Source: a virus
IMG/VR virus record: IMGVR_UViG_3300021197_001994
Span: 1-20,481 of that record
Reading direction: 5' to 3' (one strand)
DNA: 20,481 bases
The notes beneath the pieces were generated by a model that did no database searches, was not told the DNA's origin, and was given only the letters and a program-made list of their open reading frames with translations. Positions 1-20,333 of the stretch are shown in pieces (position 1 is the stretch's first letter; each line of letters starts with the position of its first letter). The position numbers and the translations under genes are program-made.

Positions 1-111
1 GGCATCATTGCCGTTCTCGGTGGATTTTACTATACAACCCAACATCGTCTTGATCATATCGAGACAGAACTTGAAAGAATCGAAAAAATAGCTAAGAGGA
101 AGCGTAAATGA
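1..111 (+). CDS. C-terminal end of a small membrane protein (partial)
   Basis: The reading frame is open from the first base and stops at 109-111, giving 36 visible residues; the start lies outside the window. The visible part begins with a short hydrophobic stretch (GIIAVLGGFYY), then a charged helix with leucine/isoleucine spacing (HRLDHIETELERIEKIAKR) and a basic tail. This looks like a single membrane segment followed by a short coiled coil and a positively charged, probably cytoplasmic, end. Its stop overlaps the next start as ATGA, so the two are probably translationally coupled. I do not recognise the family, and no function can be assigned from this fragment. Confidence 0.6.
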   Translation, partial: GIIAVLGGFYYTTQHRLDHIETELERIEKIAKRKRK

Positions 112-332
112 AATTAACAAATAAACATATAAACAAGCTCATCAAAGAAGAACTTGAAACCATGAAAGCCAATCAAATAACAGAAGCTCCTTCAATGGAA
201 CACATCACACCAGAAAATATTAAAATGGTTATTGATGTCTTGGTTCACCTTGGCTATATTGCCGTACCAGCCGCAGCAGCAGCGATGGGTGTTCAAAAAA
301 TGATGCAACCACCGAAAAAAGAAGAAAAATAA
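108..332 (+). CDS. Small tagged protein, candidate capsid-internal protein
   Basis: A 74-residue protein starting in an ATGA overlap with the preceding gene. Its first 17 residues (MKLTNKHINKLIKEELE) form a basic amphipathic helix closely resembling the N-terminus of the 90-aa protein at 7607 (MKLTKARIKQIIREELD). At residues 24-27 it has QITE followed by A, which fits the (I/L)xE cleavage rule of T4-type gp21 prohead proteases; such a protease is encoded at 7876. Residues 38-62 are hydrophobic and alanine-rich (VIDVLVHLGYIAVPAAAAA), and the tail is PPKKEEK. I infer that the N-terminus may be a capsid-targeting sequence removed during head maturation. The alternative is a small membrane peptide with an unrelated helix. 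The family is not named. Confidence 0.6.
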   Translation: MKLTNKHINKLIKEELETMKANQITEAPSMEHITPENIKMVIDVLVHLGYIAVPAAAAAMGVQKMMQPPKKEEK

Positions 333-335
333 TAC

Positions 336-364
336 TTGACAAACTGCCAAGAGTGTGTTATACT
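336..364 (+). promoter_or_regulatory. Sigma-70-type promoter, near consensus
   Basis: TTGACA at 336-341 and TATACT at 359-364 are separated by exactly 17 bases: a perfect -35 box and a 5/6 -10 box. It lies in the gap after the stop at 332. Transcription would begin near 371, about 20 bases before the ATG at 391. This matters for the start choice: the upstream in-frame ATG at 355 lies inside the promoter and could not be translated from this transcript. It would be read by host RNA polymerase with its housekeeping sigma factor. Confidence 0.75.
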
Positions 365-390
365 ATATATATCACTTTAACGGAGAAGAA

Positions 391-816
391 ATGAAATCTT
401 TTATTTTGGGGTTCCTGTTGGTCTATTCACCCCCTGCGAACGCAGAAGAGCCAACCTTTATACCTTTGAAAAGGGGACAGCCCGCACCATTTGAAGGTAG
501 ACTTTTCAACAACGCCGCCGTGTCTAAGTTTATTATCGAAGACAGAATGAAGATAGAACAGTGCGATGTCCAAATTGAATACGAAGTGGGTAATGCTAAT
601 GTTGCTTCAAAGTATAAATTTGATCTCCATACTGCAAAGTGCGAAGCAGATGATCAAAGGCTCCAAGACATGATAGCCATCCGAGACGATGAAATAGAAT
701 TTTTAAGAAAAGCTTATAACCCTCCAAAATCCCATTGGTGGGCTATTGCTGGTTTTACTTTTGGCTCTATGGCTACAGTTGGTGTTATGTATTCCATCGC
801 ACCGGGTCTCCGATGA
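391..816 (+). CDS. Exported protein with signal peptide, coiled coil and C-terminal membrane segment
   Basis: I place the start at 391 (141 aa), not at the in-frame ATG at 355. GGAGAAG lies just upstream, and the 355 start lies inside a promoter. From 391 the protein begins with a classic Sec signal peptide: MKS, a hydrophobic core FILGFLLVY, and a likely cleavage after A-N-A at residue 18. A polar region follows, then a probable coiled coil around residues 81-107 (DDQRLQDMIAIRDDEIEFL), then a membrane helix near residues 116-137 (WWAIAGFTFGSMATVGVMY). It should sit in or face the periplasm, anchored by its C-terminus. A lysis or spanin-like role is possible but unproven, and no lipobox is seen. 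The stop overlaps the next start (ATGA). Confidence 0.7.
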   Translation: MKSFILGFLLVYSPPANAEEPTFIPLKRGQPAPFEGRLFNNAAVSKFIIEDRMKIEQCDVQIEYEVGNANVASKYKFDLHTAKCEADDQRLQDMIAIRDDEIEFLRKAYNPPKSHWWAIAGFTFGSMATVGVMYSIAPGLR

Positions 817-1190
817 CAAAAAAAGATCCCAACTATGTTGCGAAAATAGAACAAGCAATTTCTAAGAAATATGGCGACGAAACAATCCAACATCCAAAAA
901 AAGACTGGACAGACGAGAAAGAAAAGCAATACCTTGAGCAACAAAAGGAATTATACTACAAAGAGCTTGATGAAGAAGACATAGACAAAGTTCAAGTAAA
1001 TGGAGTTTTTATTCCTCAAAAACTAATTAAGAAGAGTTCATCTCGCTCCTGCCCTGTGTGTAACGTATATTCTTTCAAATCTAATGATGATGTCTATATG
1101 TCAAAGTTTAAATGTTGTGAAAAGTGTTACATACAATGGGTTGAGGGTCGAGAAGAAAGATGGAAAACCGGATGGAGACCTAATAAATAA
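813..1190 (+). CDS. Conserved phage zinc-ribbon protein
   Basis: I choose ATG 813, which overlaps the previous stop as ATGA and gives 125 aa. The longer in-frame ORF from 735 would run through the membrane segment of the preceding gene in another frame. The N-terminal half is charged and helical (DEKEKQYLEQQKELYYKEL). Residues 80-105 hold a putative zinc ribbon, CPVC at 80-83 and CCEKC at 101-105, followed by a conserved-looking end, VEGREERWKTGWRPNK. From memory, proteins with this ribbon and a C-terminus of this kind are common next to the terminase in marine T4-like phages, with no known function. A metal-binding or nucleic-acid/protein-contact role is inferred. The stop overlaps the next ATG by one base (TAATG). 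Confidence 0.75.
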   Translation: MTKKDPNYVAKIEQAISKKYGDETIQHPKKDWTDEKEKQYLEQQKELYYKELDEEDIDKVQVNGVFIPQKLIKKSSSRSCPVCNVYSFKSNDDVYMSKFKCCEKCYIQWVEGREERWKTGWRPNK

Positions 1191-1654
1191 TGGCTACAAC
1201 ACTAACAGCATCAACACTTAAGATAACAGTGAAAGAAGAAATCACGCTAAATGGTAAGAAGCATGAGTATAAACAAGAGCAAGAAATCTCTGATGTCAAT
1301 ATGATATCACAAAGGATTGTCCGGGCTCCCACATCACTTAAGACCGTTTTATCTTTCGGATCAGCAATTGCCGCCGGCACATATGTCGCAGCAGACGTTA
1401 AGTATATTCGTATAACAAACCTAGATAATGAAAATTATGTAACAGTTGGGTTGCTGGATTCCACAAACACTGAGAGTGCATATCTCAAGCTAGAAAAGGG
1501 CGAGACAATAATACTTCATAATACCAAGTTAGAAACCAATGTTAATGGTGCAGTTTGGTCAACAGCATTTGAAGATATTGAAACTATAAACGCTCAAGCA
1601 AACACCGCCGCCGTTGACTTAGAGGTCTTCGTCGCATCAAGTCAAAGCAGTTAA
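1190..1654 (+). CDS. Beta-rich probable virion structural protein
   Basis: A 154-aa protein, predicted mostly beta: alternating hydrophobic strands such as KYIRITNLDNENYVTVGLL and AYLKLEKGETIILHN, with a Thr/Asn/Ala-rich end. There is no signal peptide or membrane helix. The layout (leading strands, a 'ligand-like' core with ITNL..NYVTVGL, then an acidic Ala/Val tail) resembles the small beta-sandwich proteins at 9140 and 9561, and similar proteins are frequent in marine phage structural regions. I infer a virion or decoration-type protein. Its start overlaps the previous stop by one base, and it is followed by an AAGGAGA ribosome site for the next gene. Confidence 0.6.
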   Translation: MATTLTASTLKITVKEEITLNGKKHEYKQEQEISDVNMISQRIVRAPTSLKTVLSFGSAIAAGTYVAADVKYIRITNLDNENYVTVGLLDSTNTESAYLKLEKGETIILHNTKLETNVNGAVWSTAFEDIETINAQANTAAVDLEVFVASSQSS

Positions 1655-1668
1655 GGAGAAACTAAACA

Positions 1669-2220
1669 ATGGCTAATTCAGAAATGTTAAAAGTAGTACA
1701 GGGACTGGCTCAAGCAGTATCCGATATTAAAGCAAACGGTCACGATGAACGTTATGCATATGATGGCCAAGCAAGACCAGCCGGTCTTAAAAGAGAAGAG
1801 GGAGACATTATCCTTGACAAGCGAGTCAATGATGGTTTTGCTGTTCGCTTCGTCGGCAATAAAATGTGTATCTTGTACCAATCTGATGTTATGCTTAAGG
1901 ACATCTACGCCGGTAACTTTGAAAATGAAATGATCCAAATGATGAACAGCGTAAAGAAAGCAATTCAAAAAGAATACAAGAAGATTACTGGAAACTCTGT
2001 AACATTGACTGCTGATGGTGAACCTCAAGTAATGGCACAATCCGTATCTCGAGTTCGCTCATTTGTTCAAGCATATCAGCACTTTAAGATCTCCGGCTTG
2101 AAAGACAATGAGTATGATGGAAGTTCTGAAGGGCGTAAGATCGAGGACTCATTTAAAAAGTTTTTAGAACTTGATAATAAGAATAAGCGTCCCTCTAACG
2201 ATACTCGTCCAAAATCATAA
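1669..2220 (+). CDS. Conserved protein upstream of the terminase; possible small terminase or virion protein
   Basis: A 183-aa soluble protein with a good SD (AAGGAGA at 1653-1659). The N-terminal helix (MLKVVQGLAQAVSDIK) is followed by a motif-rich part (KREEGDIILDKRVNDGFAVR, then GNKMCILYQSDVMLKDIYA). A helical stretch (NEMIQMMNSVKKAIQKEYKK) follows, and the tail is charged. From memory this family sits beside the large terminase in marine T4-like phages and is usually labelled hypothetical or virion structural. Its position matches that of T4 gene 16 (small terminase) and its length is in the right range, but I see no clear helix-turn-helix, so that role is only a possibility. Ten bases separate it from the terminase ATG. 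Confidence 0.65.
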   Translation: MANSEMLKVVQGLAQAVSDIKANGHDERYAYDGQARPAGLKREEGDIILDKRVNDGFAVRFVGNKMCILYQSDVMLKDIYAGNFENEMIQMMNSVKKAIQKEYKKITGNSVTLTADGEPQVMAQSVSRVRSFVQAYQHFKISGLKDNEYDGSSEGRKIEDSFKKFLELDNKNKRPSNDTRPKS

Positions 2221-2229
2221 TGAGGCCCA

Positions 2230-3813
2230 ATGGCTTACCAACCAACAAAACAAGAGATAGTCAAAGAGATCCTCAAGTCAGGCAAAGACCCTGTTTATTT
2301 TATAAACAATTACTGTCGTATCTCTCACCCAATGAAGGGTTTGATCACGTTCAAGACTTATCCTTATCAAGATGATCTCTTAAGAGATTTCAACGATTAT
2401 CGATTCAACGTCATTCTTAAAGCACGTCAGCTAGGTATCTCTACGATAACTGCTGGCTATTGTGTTTGGATGATGTTGTTTCATCGAGATAAGAATGTTC
2501 TTGTAATGGCAACCAAGTTTGGAACAGCTTCCAACTTAGTTAAGAAAGTTAAAGCAATGATGAAGAACCTTCCACCATGGATTAGAATTTCCAATATCAA
2601 AGTGGATAATAGATCTTCATTCGAACTACACAATGGATCTCAAATCAAAGCAACATCAACATCCGGCGACGCTGGTCGTTCCGAAGCTCTTTCCTTATTA
2701 GTAATTGATGAGGCCGCACACGTTGACGGGCTAGATGATCTGTGGACTGGTCTATATCCCACGCTATCAACTGGTGGTCGATGTATTGCCCTATCAACAC
2801 CCAATGGTGTTGGAAACTGGTTTCATAAAACCTATGTTGATGCAGACAATATGGATAATGATTTTCATCCAATCAATTTGCCATGGGACGTTCACCCCGA
2901 ACGAGATCAAGCTTGGTTCGAGAAAGAGACAAAAAACATGTCTCGAAGACAAATCGCCCAAGAGCTTGAATGTAATTTCAATACCTCAGGTGATACAGTC
3001 ATCCATCCAGATGATTTAGGAAAGCTAAACTCTTCCATTCGAGAGCCAAATTATAGAGTTGGTCACGACAGAAACTTTTGGATTTGGGAAAAGTATGATG
3101 AAAACTTTAGTTATTTAATGGTTGCTGACGTTGCCAGAGGCGACGGATCTGACTCCTCGACATTCCATATTCTAAAATTGGAAACAATGGAGGTGGTTGC
3201 AGAATACCAAGGCAAACCAAGTCTTGACCTCTATTCAAATATCCTGTATCAAACTGGGCATGAATATGGCAAATGCCTCTTGGTCGTTGAGAACAATGGT
3301 ATCGGCATATCGATTCTAGAGAAATTGATTGACTTGGGATATCCCAATCTATACTACTCGATCAAGGGAACACATGAATTTATAGATTCCACCCAAGGTG
3401 AGACAAACAACAGAGCACTCCCCGGATTCACCACATCCACTAAGACTCGACCCTTGATTGTGGCAAAATTAGAAGAGTTCATAAGGAATGGACTAATTAC
3501 TTTATATTCTGGTAGATTGTTTCACGAACTTAAAACCTTCATTTGGCACAATGGAAAACCACAAGCCATGCGCTCATACCATGACGATTTAGTTATGTCA
3601 TTAGCAATTGCATGCTGGGTGCGGGATACTGCTCTCCAAACTAGTCAAAGAGATGTAGAATATAAGAAAGCTATGCTAGATGGCATGTTTTTGAAAAGAA
3701 CGCAAATGAAAACAACCATTGAGGGCATGGATGGACACAATAAGTCTTTTGATGAGAAATACAGCAAAGAGATAAAGCAAACAACCGAATTTGCTTGGAT
3801 TTTTAAAGGATAA
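2230..3813 (+). CDS. Terminase large subunit (T4 gp17-like)
   Basis: A 527-aa DNA-packaging motor: an N-terminal ATPase that drives DNA through the portal and a C-terminal RNase H-fold nuclease that cuts concatemers. Visible motifs are an adenine-binding-type YPYQ near 44-47, a Walker A variant KARQLGIST (64-72), Walker B with catalytic Glu in LLVIDEAAH (156-164, E161), and coupling motif LSTPNG (188-193). The nuclease acids are D300 (VADVARGDG), E354 (VVENNGIG) and D452/D453 (SYHDDLVMS). All key residues are present, so the protein looks intact. The length is a little shorter than the 610 aa of T4 gp17. The ATG follows a TGAGG site, and the portal gene starts four bases after the stop, with its SD AAAGGA inside the end of this gene. 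Confidence 0.95.
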   Translation: MAYQPTKQEIVKEILKSGKDPVYFINNYCRISHPMKGLITFKTYPYQDDLLRDFNDYRFNVILKARQLGISTITAGYCVWMMLFHRDKNVLVMATKFGTASNLVKKVKAMMKNLPPWIRISNIKVDNRSSFELHNGSQIKATSTSGDAGRSEALSLLVIDEAAHVDGLDDLWTGLYPTLSTGGRCIALSTPNGVGNWFHKTYVDADNMDNDFHPINLPWDVHPERDQAWFEKETKNMSRRQIAQELECNFNTSGDTVIHPDDLGKLNSSIREPNYRVGHDRNFWIWEKYDENFSYLMVADVARGDGSDSSTFHILKLETMEVVAEYQGKPSLDLYSNILYQTGHEYGKCLLVVENNGIGISILEKLIDLGYPNLYYSIKGTHEFIDSTQGETNNRALPGFTTSTKTRPLIVAKLEEFIRNGLITLYSGRLFHELKTFIWHNGKPQAMRSYHDDLVMSLAIACWVRDTALQTSQRDVEYKKAMLDGMFLKRTQMKTTIEGMDGHNKSFDEKYSKEIKQTTEFAWIFKG

Positions 3814-3817
3814 ATAA

Positions 3818-5776
3818 ATGGCGAAAAATAGCAAGAACCCGTACAATAATGAATCTGATTTATTCAGATCTCTAACCAGATTATTCTCCGGACCTATATT
3901 GAATAGAAGAACCCAGACTGGTCGTCAATTAAGACGCCGTCATTTGGATGTTTATTCCAAATGGTTTAAGTCTGCTAGTGGAAAGCAGTTCAAGAAGGCA
4001 GAATACAATCCGATGAATGTAACGTCGGCGAATATGATTTCAAACCGAAATCGATCCGAACGTTACGTCGATTTTGATCAAATGGAATACATGCCGGAGA
4101 TCGCATCGTCCTTGGACATTTATGCAGACGAGATGACAACTCATTCCGACTTGCAACCAATGCTCAAGATCAAGTGCCCAAATGAAGAAATCAAATCAAT
4201 ACTTCAAGCTCTCTATCACAATGTGCTTAACATTGAGTACAATCTGTTTGGATGGTCTCGAACAATGTGTAAATATGGAGACCTGTTCTTATACTTAGAA
4301 CTCGATGATACTCTTGGAGTCAAGAACGTTGTTGGTCTACCTCAACAAGAACTTGAACGATTGGAAGGCGAAGACATGACCAATCCAAATTACGTACAGT
4401 TTCAGTGGAATACTGCTGGCCTTACTTTGGAGAACTGGCAAGTGGCTCACTTCCGAGTATTAGGTAATGATAAACATGCTCCTTACGGAACTTCTGTTCT
4501 TGAAGGTGCTCGTCGTATCTGGCGTCAATTGACTCTATTAGAAGATGCAATGATGGCTTATCGTATAGTTCGCTCACCAGAGCGACGTGTGTTTTATATT
4601 GACGTTGGAGCAATAGCTCCCCAAGACGTTGAGCAATACATGCAGAAAGTTATGACACAAATGAAACGTCACCAAGTTGTTGACCCAACGACTGGAAAAG
4701 TAGACCTTCGCTATAATCCCCTCTCTATCGAAGAGGATTACTATATCCCCGTCCGAGGACAAACAAATACCAAAATTGAAAACCTTGCCGGAGGCCAGTT
4801 CACTGGAACCGTCGAGGACGTAAAGTATTTAAGAGACAAACTCTTCGCTGCCCTTAAAGTACCTCAGTCATACTTGACAATGGGAGAAGGCGCGACAGAA
4901 GATAAAACAACTCTTGCCCAAAAGGATGTCAGGTTTGCAAGAACCATTCAACGACTCCAAAGAGTTGTAACCGCAGAGCTTGAAAAGATTGGAATTATCC
5001 ATCTTTACACTTTGGGTTATAGAGGAGACGACCTACTCTCTTTCAAATTGGGTTTAAACAATCCTTCTAAGATTGCCGAGTTGCAAGAGCTTGAACACTG
5101 GAAGCAGAAGTTTGAAGCAGCCGGAGCAGCAACCGAAGGGTTCTTTTCAAAGCGCTGGATTGCAGAGAACATGCTTGGAATCTCTGAGGATGAGTTTTTG
5201 CGAAACCAAAGAGAAATGTACTTTGACAAGAAATTCATGGCAAGTCTTGAGGCAGCAGGTGCTGGAGCAGAAGGCGGAGGCGGAGATGCTGGAGGTGGCC
5301 TAGGTGACCTTGGTGATCTCGGTGGAGATGATGCTGGAGGCGATACAGGTGGACTTGATGATCTTGGAGATCTTGGCGGTGATGACACTGGTGGAGACAC
5401 TGACACAGCAAAAGATGAAAAAGAGTCACCACTACTCGCAGAGCCACCAGCCAAGAGAGACGACAACGCAGTCTACAATCGAAATCGCAAAGGATCAAGA
5501 TCTAAGAAAATGAAGAGCGAAGCTGGCATATCAAAGGATGCAATAAGAGCTACACCAAGGACAATCAACCCCGGTTGGAAAGGTGATCATGGCACATATC
5601 CACTAGCTAGCATGTCCAAGAGTTATGTGGCTCCCGGTCCAATGGGTACCATGTTTGAACAAAAAACTCTTGACAATGATTTGTTGGAGGAACAAAAACT
5701 ATTTAGAGTTAACAACGAAGTAGAAAGTCTTTTAAAAAGCTTAACGGAGAAGAAAGAATATGAAGATGAAACATAA
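3818..5776 (+). CDS. Portal protein (T4 gp20-like) with Gly/Asp-rich insert
   Basis: A 652-aa protein expected to form the dodecameric ring at the head vertex, through which the terminase packages DNA. It follows directly after the terminase and has portal-type features: an N-terminal region with SGPILNRRTQTGRQ and MEYMPEIASSLDIYADEMTT, a core with RSPERRVFYIDVGAI, and the segment KVPQSYLTMGEGATEDKTTL typical of gp20-family portals. It is longer than T4 gp20 (524 aa). The extra length is C-terminal: a low-complexity Gly/Asp/Leu stretch of about 50 residues (roughly 481-535, repeats of GDLGDLGGDDAGGDTGG), then about 115 charged residues. The 3' end overlaps the next gene by 17 bases. Confidence 0.93.
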   Translation: MAKNSKNPYNNESDLFRSLTRLFSGPILNRRTQTGRQLRRRHLDVYSKWFKSASGKQFKKAEYNPMNVTSANMISNRNRSERYVDFDQMEYMPEIASSLDIYADEMTTHSDLQPMLKIKCPNEEIKSILQALYHNVLNIEYNLFGWSRTMCKYGDLFLYLELDDTLGVKNVVGLPQQELERLEGEDMTNPNYVQFQWNTAGLTLENWQVAHFRVLGNDKHAPYGTSVLEGARRIWRQLTLLEDAMMAYRIVRSPERRVFYIDVGAIAPQDVEQYMQKVMTQMKRHQVVDPTTGKVDLRYNPLSIEEDYYIPVRGQTNTKIENLAGGQFTGTVEDVKYLRDKLFAALKVPQSYLTMGEGATEDKTTLAQKDVRFARTIQRLQRVVTAELEKIGIIHLYTLGYRGDDLLSFKLGLNNPSKIAELQELEHWKQKFEAAGAATEGFFSKRWIAENMLGISEDEFLRNQREMYFDKKFMASLEAAGAGAEGGGGDAGGGLGDLGDLGGDDAGGDTGGLDDLGDLGGDDTGGDTDTAKDEKESPLLAEPPAKRDDNAVYNRNRKGSRSKKMKSEAGISKDAIRATPRTINPGWKGDHGTYPLASMSKSYVAPGPMGTMFEQKTLDNDLLEEQKLFRVNNEVESLLKSLTEKKEYEDET

Positions 5777-6575
5777 TAAGAAAAGAAATACCGCTTTTCT
5801 TTACGAGTCTTTGATCAAGGAATTGACAAAAGCAATTGTTAGAAAACAAAGCGACCGCAAACAACAAGTAGTCGAGATCATAAAAAAACATTTTAGTAAA
5901 GGAAGTATCCTCAAGCAAGAGCTTGACATTTACAATTCACTTATGGAAAACGGCTCATTGAATAAAGAACTAAGCCTCAGATTCATGCATGAAAGCAAGA
6001 GAGACCACGAAGCACTAGATAAGAAATCCGTCTTCAATGCTCAAACCAAGTTGATAAAAGAAATCAACGAATCTCTCTCAAACCAAGTATTTGCCAACTT
6101 TATTTCAAATTATCGTAACATCGCCAGTGTAGGTCAATTCTTTGACTCCAACACACTTAACGCTAAACAACGAATCTTGGTTGAGTCCAAGGTTGTCGGC
6201 ATCTTAACAACAAAGAAAGCTGAAGCTAAAGAACTCAAGCACATTGACAACTTGACTTATAAGACGTTCGTGAACAAGTTCAACACAACATATGAAAGCT
6301 CGTTGAGAAAAGAACAGAAAGATTTGTTAACAAATTATATTACGTCTTTCTCGGACAATGGTCTCGGCTTGAAGTCGTTTCTCAATGAAGAGATTGGCCG
6401 CTTGAAAGAGGTCCTGACCTATGCGGCAGCAAATCCAAACATCGATGCTCGACTGTCCGAGAACACAAAAAAAGTTATTCAAAAATTAAACTCATTCAGC
6501 AAAAAGCAAATAACAGAACAACTGGTCAAAGACGTCTTCTTTATCCAAGACCTAGCCCATGAGGTATCTAAATAA
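5760..6575 (+). CDS. Conserved phage protein in the prohead-core position
   Basis: A 271-aa, strongly helical and basic protein. The start at 5760 lies inside the end of the portal gene and is preceded by GGAGAAG; a second in-frame ATG at 5766 is also possible. Recognisable segments are RNTAFLYESLIKELTKAIVR at the N-terminus, IDNLTYKTFVNKFNTTYESS in the middle, and ITSFSDNGLGLKSFLNEEIG near residue 205. From memory this is a family conserved between the portal and prohead protease genes in marine T4-like phages, with no assigned function. T4 has the core proteins gp67 and gp68 at this place, so a prohead-core or assembly role is a reasonable guess from context. No enzyme motif is visible. Confidence 0.75.
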   Translation: MKMKHNKKRNTAFLYESLIKELTKAIVRKQSDRKQQVVEIIKKHFSKGSILKQELDIYNSLMENGSLNKELSLRFMHESKRDHEALDKKSVFNAQTKLIKEINESLSNQVFANFISNYRNIASVGQFFDSNTLNAKQRILVESKVVGILTTKKAEAKELKHIDNLTYKTFVNKFNTTYESSLRKEQKDLLTNYITSFSDNGLGLKSFLNEEIGRLKEVLTYAAANPNIDARLSENTKKVIQKLNSFSKKQITEQLVKDVFFIQDLAHEVSK

Positions 6576-7177
6576 TGTCAATCAAAGTAAACGTTACTAG
6601 TGACGACCAACAAGTAGACTCAAACAAAATCAACGTCAAGGTTACCAAACCAGACAAGATCAAGGTAGAAGTCTCCAAACAAGATCCTCCCATAGCCTTT
6701 GAACTAAACGCTCGAAAAGCTCTCAATGGAGACATCATGATCTTTGACCATGCTGACATCGACATTATCATATTGACAGAGAAGAAGAAGGTTGTTGCTT
6801 TTGCAAAAGAAATCATGAGCGATATTGTTTATGGTGCGGAAACTCGCTTGTTTGAATACTTGCGTCAACATGGAGTCGTCGCTTTCGATTCTATTCAAGG
6901 TGGTAACGTCTATGGATCTCTTGAAGCAAAAATACACGAGTCAACAGAATTTGATCCAATCAAAATGACTCTGCTTAATGTTTCAAAATGGATGGACAAC
7001 GAGCGTCCCTACTTTGAATCTATGAAAGCTCATGATGACATGATGAATGACGCAATCTTGGAACCAGACAGAGAAGACTCAACAGAACTTGGAGCTATCC
7101 CACATGAAGAAGAGAAGGGCTCCATATTACAACATAACATGTTTGCTCCGTATTTATACGGCAGATATACATACTAA
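6575..7177 (+). CDS. Conserved phage protein between portal and protease genes
   Basis: A 200-aa protein whose ATG overlaps the previous stop by one base (TAATG), so the pair is likely co-translated. The N-terminal 40 residues are polar with short repeats of V-x-V and K (KINVKVTKPDKIKVEVSK). A folded core begins at LNARKALNGDIMIFDHADID and continues through SIQGGNVYGSLEAKI; the tail holds EDSTELGAIPHEEEKGSI. From memory this is another family typical of the head region of marine T4-like phages with no known function. No membrane helix, signal peptide or catalytic motif is apparent. Gene order suggests a part in prohead assembly together with the preceding gene, but this is inference. Confidence 0.75.
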   Translation: MSIKVNVTSDDQQVDSNKINVKVTKPDKIKVEVSKQDPPIAFELNARKALNGDIMIFDHADIDIIILTEKKKVVAFAKEIMSDIVYGAETRLFEYLRQHGVVAFDSIQGGNVYGSLEAKIHESTEFDPIKMTLLNVSKWMDNERPYFESMKAHDDMMNDAILEPDREDSTELGAIPHEEEKGSILQHNMFAPYLYGRYTY

Positions 7178-7186
7178 GAGGATATA

Positions 7187-7504
7187 ATGGAATTAATTTG
7201 GTTTTGCTTGGCCGCCTACGGCTTAACGCAGATTCTTGTATACGGAAAAATTTTTGATTCAATAAGGCCAACTAAAGATCTCACTAAAATGTGGACAGTG
7301 TTATTTCACTGCCCAATGTGCATGGGTTTCTGGGTTGGTCTATTTTTATTCTCAATAAATGGATTTACAGAACTATTTACATTTGACTATAATATCGTCA
7401 ATATGCTCATATGCGGTTGTGTGTCTTCTGGAACATCTTATATATTAAGCGTGTTATTCGAAGACCTTGGCCTTAACTTAAACCTTGGAGAGAGAAATGA
7501 ATAA
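7187..7504 (+). CDS. DUF1360-like small membrane protein
   Basis: A 105-aa membrane protein with three hydrophobic stretches: residues 2-20 (LIWFCLAAYGLTQILVYG), 45-60 (MGFWVGLFLFSIN) and 71-90 (NMLICGCVSSGTSYILSVLF). Between the first two is FHCPMCMGFWVG, the CPxCxGFW signature I associate with DUF1360-type small membrane proteins of phages and bacteria. The paired cysteines suggest metal binding or a redox role, but the family has no established function. AAGAGGAT precedes the ATG. Its stop overlaps a 21-codon ORF. A membrane protein in the middle of the head genes is unusual; it may act at the inner membrane during head assembly or simply be carried along. Confidence 0.75.
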   Translation: MELIWFCLAAYGLTQILVYGKIFDSIRPTKDLTKMWTVLFHCPMCMGFWVGLFLFSINGFTELFTFDYNIVNMLICGCVSSGTSYILSVLFEDLGLNLNLGERNE

Positions 7505-7562
7505 TACTTGGACACAAAAGTGGATGCTTCAACCAGTACGTCATTGCTGTAAAGGTAGCTGA
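7497..7562 (+). CDS. Possible 21-aa mini-ORF
   Basis: ATG at 7497 overlaps the end of the DUF1360-like gene in another frame, with GGAG at about 7487-7490 giving a usable ribosome site. The 21-codon frame (MNNTWTQKWMLQPVRHCCKGS) stops at 7560-7562, a few bases before an intrinsic terminator. It could be a real small peptide or a leader-like sequence coupled to the terminator. Its length alone would allow it to be chance. Confidence 0.35.
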   Translation: MNNTWTQKWMLQPVRHCCKGS

Positions 7563-7566
7563 CTCG

Positions 7567-7590
7567 AGCGGGTAGCGCCCGCTTTTTTTT
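7567..7590 (+). terminator. Intrinsic terminator
   Basis: A GC-rich perfect 6-bp stem (AGCGGG at 7567-7572, CCCGCT at 7578-7583) with a 5-base loop is followed by eight T. It lies in the only sizeable gap of the head region, after the DUF1360-like gene and before the tagged RGG protein. It should lower transcription into the protease unit, unless that unit is read by partial readthrough or has its own late promoter, which I could not identify. Confidence 0.85.
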
Positions 7591-7606
7591 ATTAGGAAAC
7601 GGAATT

Positions 7607-7879
7607 ATGAAACTTACAAAAGCCAGAATAAAACAGATAATTCGAGAAGAATTAGATAATTTAATTCTTGAATATGAAATATACATTTATCGCGATCGAA
7701 ATGGAAGACTTCGTCAATCTGATGATGAAGGGAATGACGAATCAGCAGATCACCTAGATAATGGATCTTATGATCATTTAGAGCCCGGTGGCCACGGAGA
7801 GACAACTTCCGGAACAGGTCGTGGTGGATATGGTCGTGGTGGCTATGGTCGTGGCCGATATCGGAGAAGCTACGAATGA
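7607..7879 (+). CDS. Tagged RGG-repeat protein, candidate internal head protein
   Basis: A 90-aa protein with three parts. Residues 1-17 (MKLTKARIKQIIREELD) are a basic amphipathic helix shared with the 74-aa protein at 108. NLILE at 18-22 gives an LxE site of gp21-protease type. Next is an acidic, His/Asp-rich middle (residues 35-65), then a tail with repeated GRGGYGRGGYGRGRYRR, an RGG-type motif that in other proteins binds nucleic acid. Its stop overlaps the prohead protease ATG (ATGA at 7876), so it is translationally coupled to the protease. I infer a protein taken into the prohead with a removable targeting helix and a DNA-contacting tail. The alternative is a general RNA-binding accessory protein. 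Confidence 0.7.
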   Translation: MKLTKARIKQIIREELDNLILEYEIYIYRDRNGRLRQSDDEGNDESADHLDNGSYDHLEPGGHGETTSGTGRGGYGRGGYGRGRYRRSYE

Positions 7880-8484
7880 GTAAAAAGCTTTTAACGGAAT
7901 ATTATGAACTATGCCCCGATGGAGCCTGTTTAGATATCTTGAGCGAAAGAGAAAAACGCGAAGTCAAAGAGGGCGGAATGTACCTCGTTGGTCGTGTGCA
8001 AACAGCAGATGTTAAAAACGGCAACGGCCGTAAGTATCCGGAGAAAGTGCTGAGAAGAGAAATAGAAAATTATATGAACGTCGTCAAGGATAACAGAGCA
8101 ACTGGAGAACTTGACCACCCAGACGACTCAGTAATCAATTTAAAAAACGTATCACATATGCTAACCGATATGTGGTGGGAAGGAAAAGATGTTATGGGCA
8201 AAATTAAAGTGCTCAACACACCTTCTGGAAGAATTTTAAAAGACTTGGTGAACTCCGGAGTAAAGATTGGAATATCATCCCGAGGTCTTGGTTCGGTTCG
8301 AGAACAAATGGGAGAATCAATTGTAGAAGACGACTTCCAATTGATTTGTTTTGATATTGTATCAGAACCATCAACACCGAACGCCTATATGTATCCCAAA
8401 TCTCAACAGCGCTTTAAGATGGCTGTCCGAGAGGGAAAAGAAAACAGTATTAACGATTTATTTAAAAAGATATTGAGGGATTAA
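7876..8484 (+). CDS. Prohead maturation protease (T4 gp21-like)
   Basis: A 202-aa serine protease of the phage prohead class. In T4 this enzyme sits in the scaffold core and cuts core and capsid proteins after (I/L)xE before DNA packaging. Visible features are GRVQTADVKNGNGRKYP (residues 39-55), the catalytic-His motif GELDHP (His81) and the nucleophile motif GISSRGLGS (Ser134/Ser135), with a fold-typical FDIVSEPSTPNAYM segment near 158-171. The length is close to T4 gp21 (212 aa). It starts in ATGA with the preceding tagged RGG protein and abuts the next gene with no gap. The N-terminus also carries LLTEYY and LDILSE, possible self-cleavage points, which is inference. Confidence 0.93.
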   Translation: MSKKLLTEYYELCPDGACLDILSEREKREVKEGGMYLVGRVQTADVKNGNGRKYPEKVLRREIENYMNVVKDNRATGELDHPDDSVINLKNVSHMLTDMWWEGKDVMGKIKVLNTPSGRILKDLVNSGVKIGISSRGLGSVREQMGESIVEDDFQLICFDIVSEPSTPNAYMYPKSQQRFKMAVREGKENSINDLFKKILRD

Positions 8485-8883
8485 ATGAACAAAACCGAAT
8501 TAAAAAAAATCTTGAAACCCCTGATCAAGCAGTGCATCAAGGAGGTGATTTTCGAAGATGGCACATTATCGAATATCGTATCAGAGGTAACAAGGGGTCT
8601 TAGTACTCAAGTGATGACTGAGGCCCAACCTATTAAACAAAAATCAATGAAATTGGAATCTGAGAACGACGCCGCTCTCCGTTTGGAGAGAAAAAAGCGT
8701 ATGCTCGATTCCATCGGTAAGGATGCCTACAACGGCGTCGATCTATTTGAAGGAACAACTCCCGCACCGCCCCAAAGAGAACAGGGCCAAGGTGCTTTAT
8801 CAGGAGTGGACCCTCGAGATCCCGGCATTGATATAACCAAATTTGCATCTTCCGGAATGTGGAAGAAATTAGCAGGAAATTAA
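8485..8883 (+). CDS. Conserved head-region protein with N-terminal basic helix
   Basis: A 132-aa protein starting directly after the protease stop. The N-terminal helix (MNKTELKKILKPLIKQCIKE, then VIFEDGTLS) resembles in character, but not closely in sequence, the tags at 108 and 7607. At residues 44-47 it has VMTE followed by A. MTE is a loose match to the gp21 rule, and LLE-type sites are absent. The middle is charged (LRLERKKRMLDSIGKDAYNG), and the end holds SGVDPRDPGIDITKFASSG and WKKLAGN. From memory, similar proteins follow the protease in related marine phages. A core or head-associated function is suggested only by position. Confidence 0.7.
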   Translation: MNKTELKKILKPLIKQCIKEVIFEDGTLSNIVSEVTRGLSTQVMTEAQPIKQKSMKLESENDAALRLERKKRMLDSIGKDAYNGVDLFEGTTPAPPQREQGQGALSGVDPRDPGIDITKFASSGMWKKLAGN

Positions 8884-8884
8884 A

Positions 8885-9121
8885 ATGAGAAATGGAATAC
8901 CAAAAAAGAAGAATAACTTAACAGTTTATCCTCGAAGAAACGAATCAGCCGAGAGACTGGTTAAAAGATTTAGTAAAAAAGTTAAGAAATTGGGAATCAT
9001 CGATGAAGTCAAAGAGCGACGCTTTTTTAAATCACGATCTGAAAAAAAGAGATTGGCTAAAAAGCGAGCCATTGCCAGAAGAAAAAAGGAAGAGGCAAAA
9101 GCTAAGAGAAGAACTAATTAA
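8885..9121 (+). CDS. rpsU-like: Ribosomal protein bS21 homologue
   Basis: A 78-aa, very basic protein that aligns with bS21 of the small ribosomal subunit. It has V-x-x-R-x-N-E-S-x-E-x-L-V-K-R-F (residues 14-29), K-x-G-I-I-D-E-V-K-E-R-R-F-F (35-48) and a run of K/R with kR-x-x-K-K-R-A (54-62), as in bacterial bS21 (ALRRFKR, then EVRRREFYEKP, then RKRAKASAVKR). bS21 sits near the 3' end of 16S rRNA and helps translation initiation. Phage copies, including in marine phages, are documented. By replacing or supplementing the host protein it could bias ribosomes to phage mRNA. Its late-region position is unusual. The Lys-rich N-terminal extension (residues 1-11) is longer than in E. coli. Confidence 0.85.
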   Translation: MRNGIPKKKNNLTVYPRRNESAERLVKRFSKKVKKLGIIDEVKERRFFKSRSEKKRLAKKRAIARRKKEEAKAKRRTN

Positions 9122-9139: not shown

Positions 9140-9556
9140 ATGGCATTAACAAATCAAGTATCAAATGTATACAGTGTTGGCTTAAGAAACGTTGGTTCTT
9201 ATCAAGTATCAGGAACACCATATATAACAGGTAGCACAGTCCCAGCGAACGATGAGGTTACAATTGCCTTCCCCTATGTTACAAAGAAGATATTCGTTAA
9301 AAACACAAAACCGACCACCAGCAGCAAAATATTGCGTGTGCATTTTCAAGCAACAGGTTCAGGGAATGTTATCTCTGGCAAACACTTTGTCGAGTTGGGC
9401 GCACAAGAGAGTGTAACGTTTAACGTCAAGTGCAGTAATCTGTATTTAACAGTTAAGGCATCCGGCCAAACTTGTGACTATCAAGTTTATGCATCTTTGA
9501 CAAACATACCATCTGCACGTATGTACAACCTAACTGGATCAGGAATCACGGAGTAA
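9140..9556 (+). CDS. Small beta-sandwich virion protein, copy 1
   Basis: A 138-aa beta-rich protein with no signal or membrane segment, preceded by TTGAGGT. It is a paralogue of the next gene: both start MALTNQVSNVY.VGLR.VG.YQVSGTPY.TGST and end with LTNIP....Y/F.LTGSG.TE. The central part has alternating strands (TKKIFVKNTKP and FVELGAQESVTFNVK). Proteins of this kind are familiar in marine T4-like phage structural regions. I infer a repeat-like or decorating structural protein placed at the start of the fibre gene cluster. It shares 32 identical starting bases with its neighbour. Confidence 0.7.
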   Translation: MALTNQVSNVYSVGLRNVGSYQVSGTPYITGSTVPANDEVTIAFPYVTKKIFVKNTKPTTSSKILRVHFQATGSGNVISGKHFVELGAQESVTFNVKCSNLYLTVKASGQTCDYQVYASLTNIPSARMYNLTGSGITE

Positions 9557-9592
9557 AATTATGGCATTAACAAATCAAGTATCAAATGTATA
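9140..9592 (+). repeat. 32-base identical start of the two paralogous beta proteins
   Basis: Bases 9140-9171 and 9561-9592 are identical, including the ATG. The two genes diverge after this. This marks the tandem duplication of the small structural gene. Confidence 0.9.
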
Positions 9593-9995
9593 TGGAGTGG
9601 GATTAAGAAGCGTCGGAGCCTATCAGGTTTCCGGAACCCCTTATCTGACAGGCTCTACTATCGACAAGGACGTAGAATATAATGTCTCTGGCGTCGACGG
9701 CGAATTGATGATACAGTTTCCATATGTGACCCAAACAGTCACAGTCGTTAACACAACTGCTAGTGGAGCACTATTTTTACACTTTGTGTCTTCAAGCTCT
9801 CCGGGCTGGAACCTGACAAAAAAACAATTTATAACTTTGAACGCTGGTGAGACAATGACTTTTGATGCTAAGTGTAAAGAAATATTCTTAAACAATGATA
9901 ATGCAACAGACCAGACATTTGAGTTGATCGCTGACTTAACAAATATCCCAACAGGCAGCATGTTTGCTTTAACCGGCTCTGGCGTAACAGAATAG
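9561..9995 (+). CDS. Small beta-sandwich virion protein, copy 2
   Basis: A 144-aa paralogue of the gene at 9140, with an SD (CGGAGT) inside the end of that gene and only four bases between them. It has the same opening and closing motifs, with a six-residue insert after TGST and a diverged core (ELMIQFPYVTQTVTVVNTTA, AGETMTFDAKCKEIFL). The first 32 bases of the two genes are identical while the rest has drifted, suggesting duplication with later exchange. A probable structural protein; the two may form a hetero-oligomer or serve as alternative versions. Confidence 0.7.
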   Translation: MALTNQVSNVYGVGLRSVGAYQVSGTPYLTGSTIDKDVEYNVSGVDGELMIQFPYVTQTVTVVNTTASGALFLHFVSSSSPGWNLTKKQFITLNAGETMTFDAKCKEIFLNNDNATDQTFELIADLTNIPTGSMFALTGSGVTE

Positions 9996-16781: not shown

Positions 16782-19700
16782 ATGGCTGGATTAAACACTA
16801 CAACGATAACCGACAAGGACAATGATGGGATTGATATCGACGCAGGTGGAGCAATAACAATTGACTCTGCGGGCGTTTCAATCGATTCTGCTGGTGTCGC
16901 CGCAAACTTTACTGTTGCATCTGACGGCGCTGCCGAAGACTTGACAATATCAGTCACAGGAGCAACTGACTCAAGTGTTGTGATTAGTTCATCCGGAACT
17001 GGTGCCGATGCTGTCAAGGTTTCAACATCCGCAGGTTCAATTGATATAGACTCAGCGGATAATATTGCGATCGATGCTGTTGATGAAATCAGTATCGCGA
17101 CCACATCAGCCGATGGACATATGACATTAACATCCGCTCACACTTCCGGATTGGCTTTTCATATTGATGCAAACGCTAATGCTGGGTCAGAGGTTCAAAT
17201 TGATGCTGGTATTTTAGACATCGATGTAACCGGAGCAGCCACACTTGATTCCGGTGGGGCGATGACCTTAACCGGTGCTGGTGTTAACATAGCTGGTGGA
17301 AGTAGTGAAGTTGATATTACCACGACAGGAACTCTTGACATAAACGCAAATGCCATGGATATGGATCTTACGGATTCATCTTCCATCACTATCACATCGA
17401 GCGAAGCAGCCGAGGACCTTATTATAGAACAGGTTGGTGGCAACGATTCTTCAATCATTATACAAGCTGCTGGTACAGGCACAGACGCAATCAGACTTAA
17501 TGCTTCTGGAGGCAGTATTGATATAGATGCTGCTGACAATATAGCAATCAATGCTGTTGATGAAATCAGTATCGCGACCACATCAGCCGATGGACATATG
17601 ACTTTAACTTCTGCCCACACTGCTGGTGTTGCGTTTCATATTGATGCTAATGCTCACGCTGATTCTGAAGTTCAAATTGATGCTGGTATTTTAGACATCG
17701 ATGTAACCGGAGCAGCCACACTTGATGCCGTTGGAATTGCTCTTGGTGCAGGATCTGGTGAATTGGATCTGACCACGACAGGAACAATGGATATTAATTC
17801 AGCCGCATTAGATATAGATACAAGCGGAGCAATAACAATTGATGCTGCTGGTGCGGCTAGTCATATTGCAATAGTCACAGCACACACAGCAGGGGATGCT
17901 TTTCACCTTGATGCTAATGCAAATGTAGGCTCAATTGTAAATATTGACGCGGGTATTTTAGATATAGATTCTGATGGAGCCACCACTATTGATGCAGCTT
18001 CCACAGTTACAGTTACAGGCGCCACTGGTGCTACCTTTGGAGACGACACAGAAGCAATAGCCTATGATGGATCTGGTAATCTTGACCTTGATGCTGTTGC
18101 TCTGGATGTTGATACAAGTGGAGCAATAAATATTAATGCTGCCGGTACAGCTAGTGATATTGCAATAATCACAGCACACACTGCTGGGGTAGCATTTCAT
18201 CTAGATGCTGATGCAAATGCTGGATCAATTGTGGACATTGATGCTGGTATTTTAGACATCGATGCCCAAGGGGATGTAACTATCGACGCTGACGCTGTGA
18301 AAATTGGCAACGAAGCTGCTGGTGCTGGAATACTTCACATTATGGAAGACACCGATAATGGTGCTAATTATTCAGGCTTTACAGTAGGAAATATGGCAGC
18401 AAATGTTGTATATACACTTCCAACCAATGACGGCTCTAGTGGCCAACAGTTAACCACAGATGGTTCTGCTGTTCTTTCTTGGACTGATGCTGGTAGCGGT
18501 GGTGGATCACTTAGTGGCTTAGGAAGTACAGACAATGCCCTTGTTAGAACTAACGGTACCGGTGGAGAAACCGTGCAAGGTTCCGGCATTATTATTGATG
18601 ACAGCAACAATGTAAGCTCCATGGGAACATTGGCTTCCGGAGCGATCACCTCATCAGGCAGAATTGTTTCAGATGACGCCACAGAAGCAACTTCAACAAC
18701 AGACGGCTCACTTCAAACTGATGGTGGTCTTTCAGTTGCTAAGGATATTGTTATCGGTGATGGCAAAACAATAGGCACTGCAACAACAAATGCAGCCTTG
18801 ACAATTGCAGCCAATGGTTTGTTAACCGCTGCCGCTGGTATCACTTCAACCGCTGCTTCTAATACACTCGGAGCTACATCATTTAATGATGCCGACATTA
18901 CAAATGTTGGAGATATTGCCCTTGACTCTATTTCTTCAGACGGAAGTTTGGTGACAGTCAATGCTCCAATGGAAATTGCCCAAGGATCTAGTGGTGGTGC
19001 AACTGCCTTAGTTCTTGATAATGACGACACCAACCAAATTGCTTTAGATATCGAAGCTGCCAATATTGATGCAGACGTGTTAAAAATACAAGCAACCGCT
19101 CTAACAACAGCAGATGCTATTTCTATTGATGTAAATTCTTTAACAACTGGTAATGCTTTGTTTATTGATCATGATTCGGCATTGACAACCGATGGCGCGT
19201 CCATTGTTGGTTTGCATTATGATTTCGATCACGGTAACAATACTCTGGGTGATGGAGAGTCAATGACAATGACTGGTTTTGACATAGACATGAACGATGC
19301 AGCGAATGCTCATCATGCAAACGCCACCGCCACAATGATTGGTTTGGACATAGATATGGCGTCTACAAGTGCTCAAGGGACTATAACCAATAAAGGTATT
19401 AGCGTCAATGTTTCTGGTGGAGATGCCCAAGGCGGCAATATCGCTATCGAGGTCGCGGCCGGTGCAGTTCACATGAAAGATGGTCAACAAATAGTGTTTG
19501 GCGATGCCTTTGACGCACAAATCAAATGGGACCACGGCGGTAAAGAAGCTCTTTTAATCGATGGCGGGATACACGCAACATCAACGGATGGTAACAATAA
19601 TCCTATCCTAGAGATTGAAAACGCTTCTGATGGAGCCTCCACATGTCTTCTTATTGACAATGATGATGTCGATCAACTTTGTATCGATATTGATGCTGAG

Positions 19701-20333
19701 AACACAACTGCTGACATTATTAATATTCAAGCAAATGCACTTACAACAGCTAATGCAATCGATATTCCAAATGCTGATGCTTTGACAACAGGATCAATCT
19801 TAAATCTTGTTTCTAATGCCTCCAGCGATGACAATCGAACTTTGGCTAAAATTGAAGCTTCACATGCAAACTCTGATAACGTTATTCCGCTTCAAGTGAA
19901 AAACGCTTGTACTCATGCCGATGGAAACATTGTCGCACAATTTAATGGCCCAGTGGATGCAATCGCTGTAAAAACCAAACAGGTAATATTAAACAGTCCA
20001 AGCGGTGCAAGTTTTGTTGAATCAAGCGGCTTCTTCCCTGCTGGTATCACAGTTCTTGGTTTGACAGCAAAAGTTACAACCGTTATACCAAATTCAAAGT
20101 TTATTGAAGAAATAGGACATGTCTCCGGAGGTTCACCAGACCCCAACTCTTTTGGTACATTTGCCAATGCATCAGTTCTTGGTAACTTGAATACCATAGC
20201 CAAAATGGTTCCCCGAGTGTTTATAGATCATTTTACTCAAGCCGATTTAAGAATAACCTTCAATGCTGACCCAGCCGCCACATCTGGTGTAATTCGCGTC
20301 ACGCTGTTTTTCACGGAACAAATCCCTGGATAA
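16782..20333 (+). CDS. Giant Asp-rich repeat fibre protein
   Basis: A 1183-aa protein with SD AAGGAG. Residues 1-506 contain only three Lys/Arg and many Asp, arranged as I-D-I-D strands (GAITIDAAG, DAGILDIDVTGAATLD). Two copies of a 159-residue unit start near residues 50 and 209; two shorter units near 350 and 448 repeat AHTAGxAFHLDA and AGILDID. The middle (516-575) has GILHIMEDTDNGANYSGF and VYTLPTNDGSSGQQLTTDG. The second half repeats a LDNDD-x-x-Q-x-x-x-DI module at D746 and D959. The end (about 1083-1183) is a compact beta domain finishing VIRVTLFFTEQIPG, probably the tip. It is likely a long beta-helical, possibly calcium-binding fibre. Neither fold nor receptor is proven. Confidence 0.8.
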   Translation: MAGLNTTTITDKDNDGIDIDAGGAITIDSAGVSIDSAGVAANFTVASDGAAEDLTISVTGATDSSVVISSSGTGADAVKVSTSAGSIDIDSADNIAIDAVDEISIATTSADGHMTLTSAHTSGLAFHIDANANAGSEVQIDAGILDIDVTGAATLDSGGAMTLTGAGVNIAGGSSEVDITTTGTLDINANAMDMDLTDSSSITITSSEAAEDLIIEQVGGNDSSIIIQAAGTGTDAIRLNASGGSIDIDAADNIAINAVDEISIATTSADGHMTLTSAHTAGVAFHIDANAHADSEVQIDAGILDIDVTGAATLDAVGIALGAGSGELDLTTTGTMDINSAALDIDTSGAITIDAAGAASHIAIVTAHTAGDAFHLDANANVGSIVNIDAGILDIDSDGATTIDAASTVTVTGATGATFGDDTEAIAYDGSGNLDLDAVALDVDTSGAININAAGTASDIAIITAHTAGVAFHLDADANAGSIVDIDAGILDIDAQGDVTIDADAVKIGNEAAGAGILHIMEDTDNGANYSGFTVGNMAANVVYTLPTNDGSSGQQLTTDGSAVLSWTDAGSGGGSLSGLGSTDNALVRTNGTGGETVQGSGIIIDDSNNVSSMGTLASGAITSSGRIVSDDATEATSTTDGSLQTDGGLSVAKDIVIGDGKTIGTATTNAALTIAANGLLTAAAGITSTAASNTLGATSFNDADITNVGDIALDSISSDGSLVTVNAPMEIAQGSSGGATALVLDNDDTNQIALDIEAANIDADVLKIQATALTTADAISIDVNSLTTGNALFIDHDSALTTDGASIVGLHYDFDHGNNTLGDGESMTMTGFDIDMNDAANAHHANATATMIGLDIDMASTSAQGTITNKGISVNVSGGDAQGGNIAIEVAAGAVHMKDGQQIVFGDAFDAQIKWDHGGKEALLIDGGIHATSTDGNNNPILEIENASDGASTCLLIDNDDVDQLCIDIDAENTTADIINIQANALTTANAIDIPNADALTTGSILNLVSNASSDDNRTLAKIEASHANSDNVIPLQVKNACTHADGNIVAQFNGPVDAIAVKTKQVILNSPSGASFVESSGFFPAGITVLGLTAKVTTVIPNSKFIEEIGHVSGGSPDPNSFGTFANASVLGNLNTIAKMVPRVFIDHFTQADLRITFNADPAATSGVIRVTLFFTEQIPG
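17074..17726 (+). repeat. 477-bp period repeat in the giant fibre gene
   Basis: Bases 17074-17125 recur exactly at 17551-17602 (52 bases) and bases 17193-17249 recur exactly at 17670-17726 (57 bases), both at a spacing of 477 bases, or 159 codons. The bases between them have drifted. The exact blocks imply recent gene conversion or strong constraint on parts of the unit, and they are sites for unequal recombination that could change fibre length. Confidence 0.9.

Follow-up and report, generated by a model that had tools for sequence, protein, structure and literature searches.

A recurrent N-terminal tag with putative gp21-type cleavage sites: candidate capsid-targeting propeptides in uncultivated T4-like phages

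The stretch of DNA analyzed here, the window, is a 20.5-kb marine phage fragment (20,481 nucleotides) from an uncultivated virus that encodes a gp21-type prohead protease and two small proteins opening with a related N-terminal sequence, the tag that is the subject of this report. These features are as follows, with an arrow marking each putative cut.

108..332, + strand: 74-aa tagged protein, with the tag, a putative gp21 site (QITE↓A) and a small hydrophobic C-terminal domain
108..173, + strand: tag of the 74-aa protein, codons 1-22, MKLTNKHINKLIKEELETMKAN, from the sequence and the profile of 417 tagged proteins
177..185, + strand: putative gp21 site I24-T25-E26 of the 74-aa protein, predicted cut after E26 and before A27, from homologue comparison
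7607..7879, + strand: 90-aa tagged protein, directly upstream of the protease gene, with a basic C-terminus rich in Arg, Gly and Tyr
7607..7672, + strand: tag of the 90-aa protein, codons 1-22, MKLTKARIKQIIREELDNLILE, from the sequence
7664..7672, + strand: putative gp21 site I20-L21-E22 of the 90-aa protein, followed by Y23, from the sequence
7876..8484, + strand: gp21-type prohead protease, from phrog_207, 5jbl and conserved His and Ser motifs

The preliminary description of this DNA held that the two small proteins share an N-terminal pattern and are otherwise unrelated, that an (I/L)xE motif soon follows the pattern in each, and that a gp21-type protease is encoded at 7876; all of this is borne out. 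Both open reading frames (ORFs) lie as placed, nine of their first 17 residues are identical (M1, K2, L3, T4, I8, I12, E14, E15 and L16), and the motifs are ITE↓A in the 74-aa protein and ILE↓Y in the 90-aa protein. The protease is homologous to T4 gp21 over the protease domain, matching phrog_207 (E=1.8e-60) and the solved T4 gp21 structure 5jbl (E=1.1e-20). Its catalytic-type His (GELDHP) and Ser (ISSRGLG) motifs align with those of T4 gp21 and are kept in 74 of 74 relatives, the best isolate relatives being about 46% identical. The last 4 bases of the 90-aa gene (ATGA) are shared with the protease gene, and a single-sequence model of the 90-aa protein predicts a helix at residues 5-23 (predicted local distance difference test score, pLDDT, about 88) with the remainder mostly disordered. 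In the 74-aa protein and its homologues the site takes the forms ITE↓A, LSE↓G, IDE↓G, LEE↓G, VKE↓G, MQE↓G and VME↓S. Even in distant homologues φ-x-E↓G/A/S is kept immediately before the shared C-terminal domain, while the distance from tag to site varies greatly, between about 26 and 140 residues.

The tag recurs widely as a module. In the surroundings of 80 protease relatives, 99 ORFs begin with it, and the sample was then enlarged with contigs found by a tag-only DNA pattern and with regions of long contigs. Based on a profile of residues 2-16, 508 ORFs of related viral contigs, with 417 non-redundant bodies, start with the tag, a recurrence well past what chance would give. It spans about 22 residues with the consensus M-K-(I/L)-T-K-x-Q-L-K-x-I-I-K-E-E-L-x-x-V-L-x-E, and its core columns (residues 2-4 and 8-16) each hold about 2-4 bits of information, compared with 0.16 at residue 23. 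When the profile was matched at any position, 519 of 591 matches began at Met and 72 elsewhere. When 4,385 genes were clustered without bias by their first 20 residues, the tag likewise came out as the largest cluster, with 660 members, and the other N-terminus clusters inspected were ordinary gene families. The tag is thus a short N-terminal sequence common to otherwise unrelated proteins, and as many as about 27 tagged genes are found on one contig.

The end of the tag is where a cleavage motif is concentrated, though not universally. The preliminary description had proposed looking for a common (I/L)xE site at residues 18-30 of the tag matches. Such a site is there in 204 of the 417 proteins, compared with a mean of 84 and a maximum of 104 in within-protein shuffles, and only 29 of 417 have one at residues 31-43. 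With the site relaxed to φ-x-E (L/I/M/V), the count is 276 of 417 vs 135 in shuffles. The Glu of the site peaks at residue 22 (107 proteins) and residue 21 (60). It is followed by A, G or S in 79 of 165 cases (48%). In the two controls the share is about 20%: where a tag has no site, residue 23 is one of the three in 51 of 252 cases (p=4e-9), and after LxE inside the bodies the count is 79 of 414 (p=1e-11). The density of LxE in the bodies is slightly below that of all 100 shuffles. T4 gp21 cleaves after L/I-X-E (PMC9026906).

Further tags occur on the same contigs. A second one, (M)KLIMENWRxF(L/V)xE, starts about 60 non-redundant proteins, with φ-x-E within about 10 residues in 51 of the 53 that have the ENW core, and a third, NLLREYIRELLxE, is present on about nine proteins, mostly neighbours on one contig. 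In two cases close homologues carry different tags. A P-loop kinase has the first tag in L193 and L013 and an ENW-like tag in L070, with 68% identity between L193 and L070 beginning directly behind the two tags. A small protein carries the second tag in L142 and the first in L184; identity is 75%, and the shared junction reads LEE↓A. Other pairs of homologous bodies with differing tags are more distant. From such comparisons the tags look interchangeable, and as interchange on homologous bodies is hard to explain otherwise, they would have the same job.

The tag and the gp21-type protease occur together. Tags are present on 13 of 13 long protease-anchored contigs and, among protease-anchored loci no shorter than 15 kb, at 28 of 30. 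In 22 of 76 loci a tagged gene, with differing bodies, occupies the slot immediately upstream of the protease gene. In the reverse direction, 40 contigs (37-186 kb) were selected on the tag alone, and 25 of them encode gp21. As for the other 15, G050 breaks off within the protease gene, and the remaining 14 fail to cover the whole portal-capsid interval (G026 and G045 stop in or past the portal gene, G032 starts at gp22/major capsid protein, and the rest are without head genes). Since the head region is incomplete in all 15, none is a counter-example. The preliminary description had named tagged proteins widespread in phages without a gp21-type protease as evidence that would speak against it; among the 40 tag-selected contigs, we found no tag-bearing contig that spans the head genes and is without such a protease.

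The canonical gp21 substrates of this clade, as judged from alignment and motif, carry the same LxE-type site as the tags. All 74 clade proteases have (L/I/V)xE in their first 12 residues, typically LLRE or LLTE (LTE at residues 6-8 in the protease of the window), and in most of the contig major capsid proteins (MCPs) aligned, the stretch that MAFFT sets against the cut site of T4 gp23 is LL(R/K)E↓A/S/Q. On the record of an uncultured 484-kb phage (L298; LR756508.1, 156480-158198) an in-frame interruption of about 1.1 kb (a 576-codon open frame) in the gp21-type protease suggests an intein.

Outside this group of contigs the tag is rare. In 84,980 bacterial and archaeal species genomes its DNA pattern was found on three contigs only, one of them 305 kb long, with gp21 and with about 18 tagged genes arrayed over about 11 kb. 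The profile gave no match in T4, S-PM2, HTVC008M, ValKK3, lambda, phiKZ, P1 or SPO1, and cultured phages searched by the tag alone gave chance-level or weak matches only. The 484-kb phage, which encodes gp21, has six tag matches. The preliminary description had expected the tag to mark cargo across related phages; this holds in the present clade but does not extend, as a sequence, to T4, the cyanophage S-PM2 or the pelagiphage HTVC008M. The immuto Flavobacterium phage has a weak tag (MKKSQLRQIIKEAL). Some contigs filed under bacterial metagenome-assembled genomes look phage-like, namely NHDW01000006.1 (L271 and L306-L309; Methylococcaceae TMED69) and PBIO01000025.1 (L269 and L270; Halobacteriovorax SP2999). 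In both, tagged genes stand in dense arrays, and NHDW01000006.1 also encodes gp21; on this sequence evidence they are likely mis-binned phage.

Of the tagged bodies, 280 were scanned against Pfam and 140 against PHROGs, and most gave no match. The recognizable ones include a P-loop kinase of the polynucleotide kinase (PNK/AAA_33) type, RNase_T-type (DEDD) exonucleases, which also occur with the third tag, and pentapeptide repeats. There is a weak match to ADP-ribosyltransferases (ART-like) on a body with the third tag. A GNAT-like match in L103 starts at residue 10 and its tag may therefore partly be the domain itself. For the kinase, single-sequence structure prediction was too poor to use. 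S-adenosylmethionine (SAM) lyases counter restriction, and a SAM lyase body (4.9e-13) carries the second tag. The tag-1 protein behind a weak SAM-lyase match was not located, a tag-2 copy and one other copy being found instead. In L296 (1351-3318), a 655-aa SAM-lyase-containing protein opens with the second tag (MKQLIENWNKFVINE) and is, by its domain and tag, a candidate pre-packaged anti-restriction enzyme. T4 packages the anti-restriction protein IPI and the ADP-ribosyltransferase Alt behind gp21-cleaved propeptides (PMC9026906, PMC5694885), a theme that the cargo types found here would be paralleling.

From the tag, its modularity, the site, the preference at the residue after the cut (P1'), the link with gp21 and the types of bodies, we infer docking on a core partner, cleavage, packaging and injection. 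The tag is likely a capsid-targeting propeptide analogous to the capsid-targeting sequence (CTS) of T4, with the body cut free in the head and delivered into the host. Under this scenario, the short N-terminal amphipathic helix would dock a new protein on the prohead core before or during shell assembly. Once the shell is complete, the gp21-type protease (gene at 7876) would cut behind the (I/L)xE that closes the tag, and the mature body, freed inside the head, would be packaged with the DNA and then delivered to the host. The tag is modular, in that unrelated bodies share it and related bodies bear different tags, and many of the cargo genes stand in arrays. A broader proposal, to which we give about even weight, is that at least three interchangeable N-terminal capsid-entry tags, all ending in φ-x-E, form a general delivery code by which virions are pre-loaded with many small effector or anti-defence proteins from swappable arrays.

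Several observations weigh against a capsid-targeting propeptide. From about one third (relaxed φ-x-E) to about one half (strict site) of tagged proteins have no site at residues 18-30, and in L002 and L005, which are close to the window by their protease, the tagged protein before gp21 is without a site near residue 22. In the 90-aa protein itself the Tyr after ILE is an unusual P1' residue. The first tag differs from the T4 IPIII and IPI propeptides (MKTYQEFIAE and MKTFKEF), no T4 protein matching the profile, and as the association of tag and gp21 is confined to one clade, common descent is a confounder. Tagged proteins without a site may be targeted yet uncut; in T4, a change at CTS residue 10 stops processing but not targeting (PMC9026906).

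That separation of targeting from processing also suits a different explanation, in which the tag is a core-docking helix that is generally not removed and LxE is part of the helix, not a cleavage site. Leu20 and Glu22 do extend the amphipathic pattern L8-I11/I12-L16-V19/L20, the predicted helix reaches residue 23, and many tags have no site. We nevertheless regard an uncut helix as unlikely, as the preference for a small residue past Glu is much weaker where LxE is absent, the second and third tags, which are other helices, likewise end in φ-x-E, and orthologues of the 74-aa protein hold the site at the domain junction despite the varying distance from the tag. Somewhat less likely still is that the helix serves sorting or interaction elsewhere than in the head, with the host membrane, the tail, a host protein or some compartment of the phage as possible targets. 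Amphipathic helices rich in K and E are generic and some tagged proteins, like the 74-aa family, have a hydrophobic segment, but a target of this kind fits poorly with the restriction of the tag to gp21-bearing phages, the P1'-specific signal, the tagged slot adjoining the protease gene and cargo types that resemble T4 internal proteins.

The two remaining explanations concern the origin of the similarity itself. As the bodies are mostly short and without known domains, the tagged proteins might be one fast-evolving paralogous family whose bodies diverged beyond recognition. This is very improbable given that homologous bodies bear different tags, and it is rejected as a general explanation because the bodies have unrelated folds (P-loop kinase, DEDD exonuclease, SAM lyase and pentapeptide repeats). 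If a conserved element in the DNA or RNA where genes begin, for example a translation signal, were being read as protein, this would account for the position always at the start codon and for the codon bias in the tag, where ACA at Thr4 and GAA at Glu14 are strongly favoured. However, synonymous codons vary freely at conserved residues, with six codons at L8, variation at I12, and 194 GAA vs 185 GAG at E15; selection therefore acts on the protein, and such an element is largely ruled out, with hardly any probability left to it.

Also encoded in the window are a terminase and a portal protein of T4 type, which match phrog_2 and phrog_213, as the protease matches phrog_207, and a conserved small protein follows the protease gene.

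2230..3813, + strand: T4-type terminase large subunit, from the phrog match
3818..5776, + strand: T4-type (gp20) portal protein, from the phrog match
8485..8883, + strand: 132-aa protein after the protease, strongly conserved, with an N-terminal amphipathic stretch ending in VIFE (N-terminus ELKKILKPLIKECIKEVIFE)

By its position and sequence, the 132-aa protein is a candidate prohead core protein, comparable to T4 gp67/gp68, and a possible docking partner of the tags. Two genes past the protease is a gene for a bS21-like ribosomal protein (phrog_21469; 8885-9121), and the Microcystis phage Mel-JY01 has an annotated RpsU in the equivalent position. Two tandem related genes follow (9140-9556 and 9561-9995), both starting MALTNQVSNVY-VGLR-VG. 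Many related contigs encode similar proteins of 120-150 aa with a conserved start (VGLxNVGSYQVSG) and divergent bodies, and from these sequences they are likely a family of virion proteins. A 1,183-aa protein (16782-20333) with short repeats rich in Asp, Ser and Ala is, by composition, probably a fibre or adhesin.

Phage proteins injected with the DNA act ahead of phage gene expression, among them, in T4, anti-restriction and host-takeover factors, and the genes for injected proteins are normally unrecognizable. If the tag does serve as a capsid-targeting propeptide, sequence alone could place hundreds of unannotated proteins from uncultivated marine T4-like phages in the virion interior, mature N-terminus included, and new short capsid-loading tags would come with a large list of candidate counter-defence proteins. 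If the delivery code is also real, one sequence rule would reveal the injected proteome of uncultivated phages, with SAM lyase, nucleic-acid kinase, exonuclease and possible ADP-ribosyltransferase among it. We found no paper describing the tag in a literature search that was not exhaustive. The principle is already known from T4, and the tag is not the T4 CTS by sequence; what is new are the tag sequences, their scale, the arrays and the exchange of tags between homologous bodies.

Among known systems, the T4 CTS of IPI, IPII, IPIII and the Alt propeptide is alike in being a short N-terminal propeptide on unrelated bodies, with (L/I)xE before a small residue, in a phage with gp21, whose GEL(D/N)HP and SSRG motifs the protease of the window keeps along with its matches to phrog_207 and 5jbl. 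T4 cargo such as IPI and Alt acts on host defence or host machinery, and the types of tagged cargo are similar. Unlike the tag, with its approximately 22 residues, the CTS has 10 in IPIII (PMC9026906). T4 has a handful of CTS proteins; the genomes here each have more than one type of tag, with as many as about 27 tagged genes on a single contig and about 18 genes in an array. The second tag resembles the T4 IPIII/IPI propeptide by eye only. In phage P1, the N-terminal 30 residues of DarB suffice to target a reporter to the capsid and the cargo is anti-restriction (PMC9024508); however, no common consensus is reported among Dar proteins (PMC9024508) and P1 is without a phrog_207 match. The propeptides of phiKZ and SPN3US ejection proteins are cut after Glu by a gp21-related protease (PMC5694885), as we propose for the tag, but at the motif A/S-x-E; the text consulted reports no comparable shared modular tag, and phiKZ is without tag matches.

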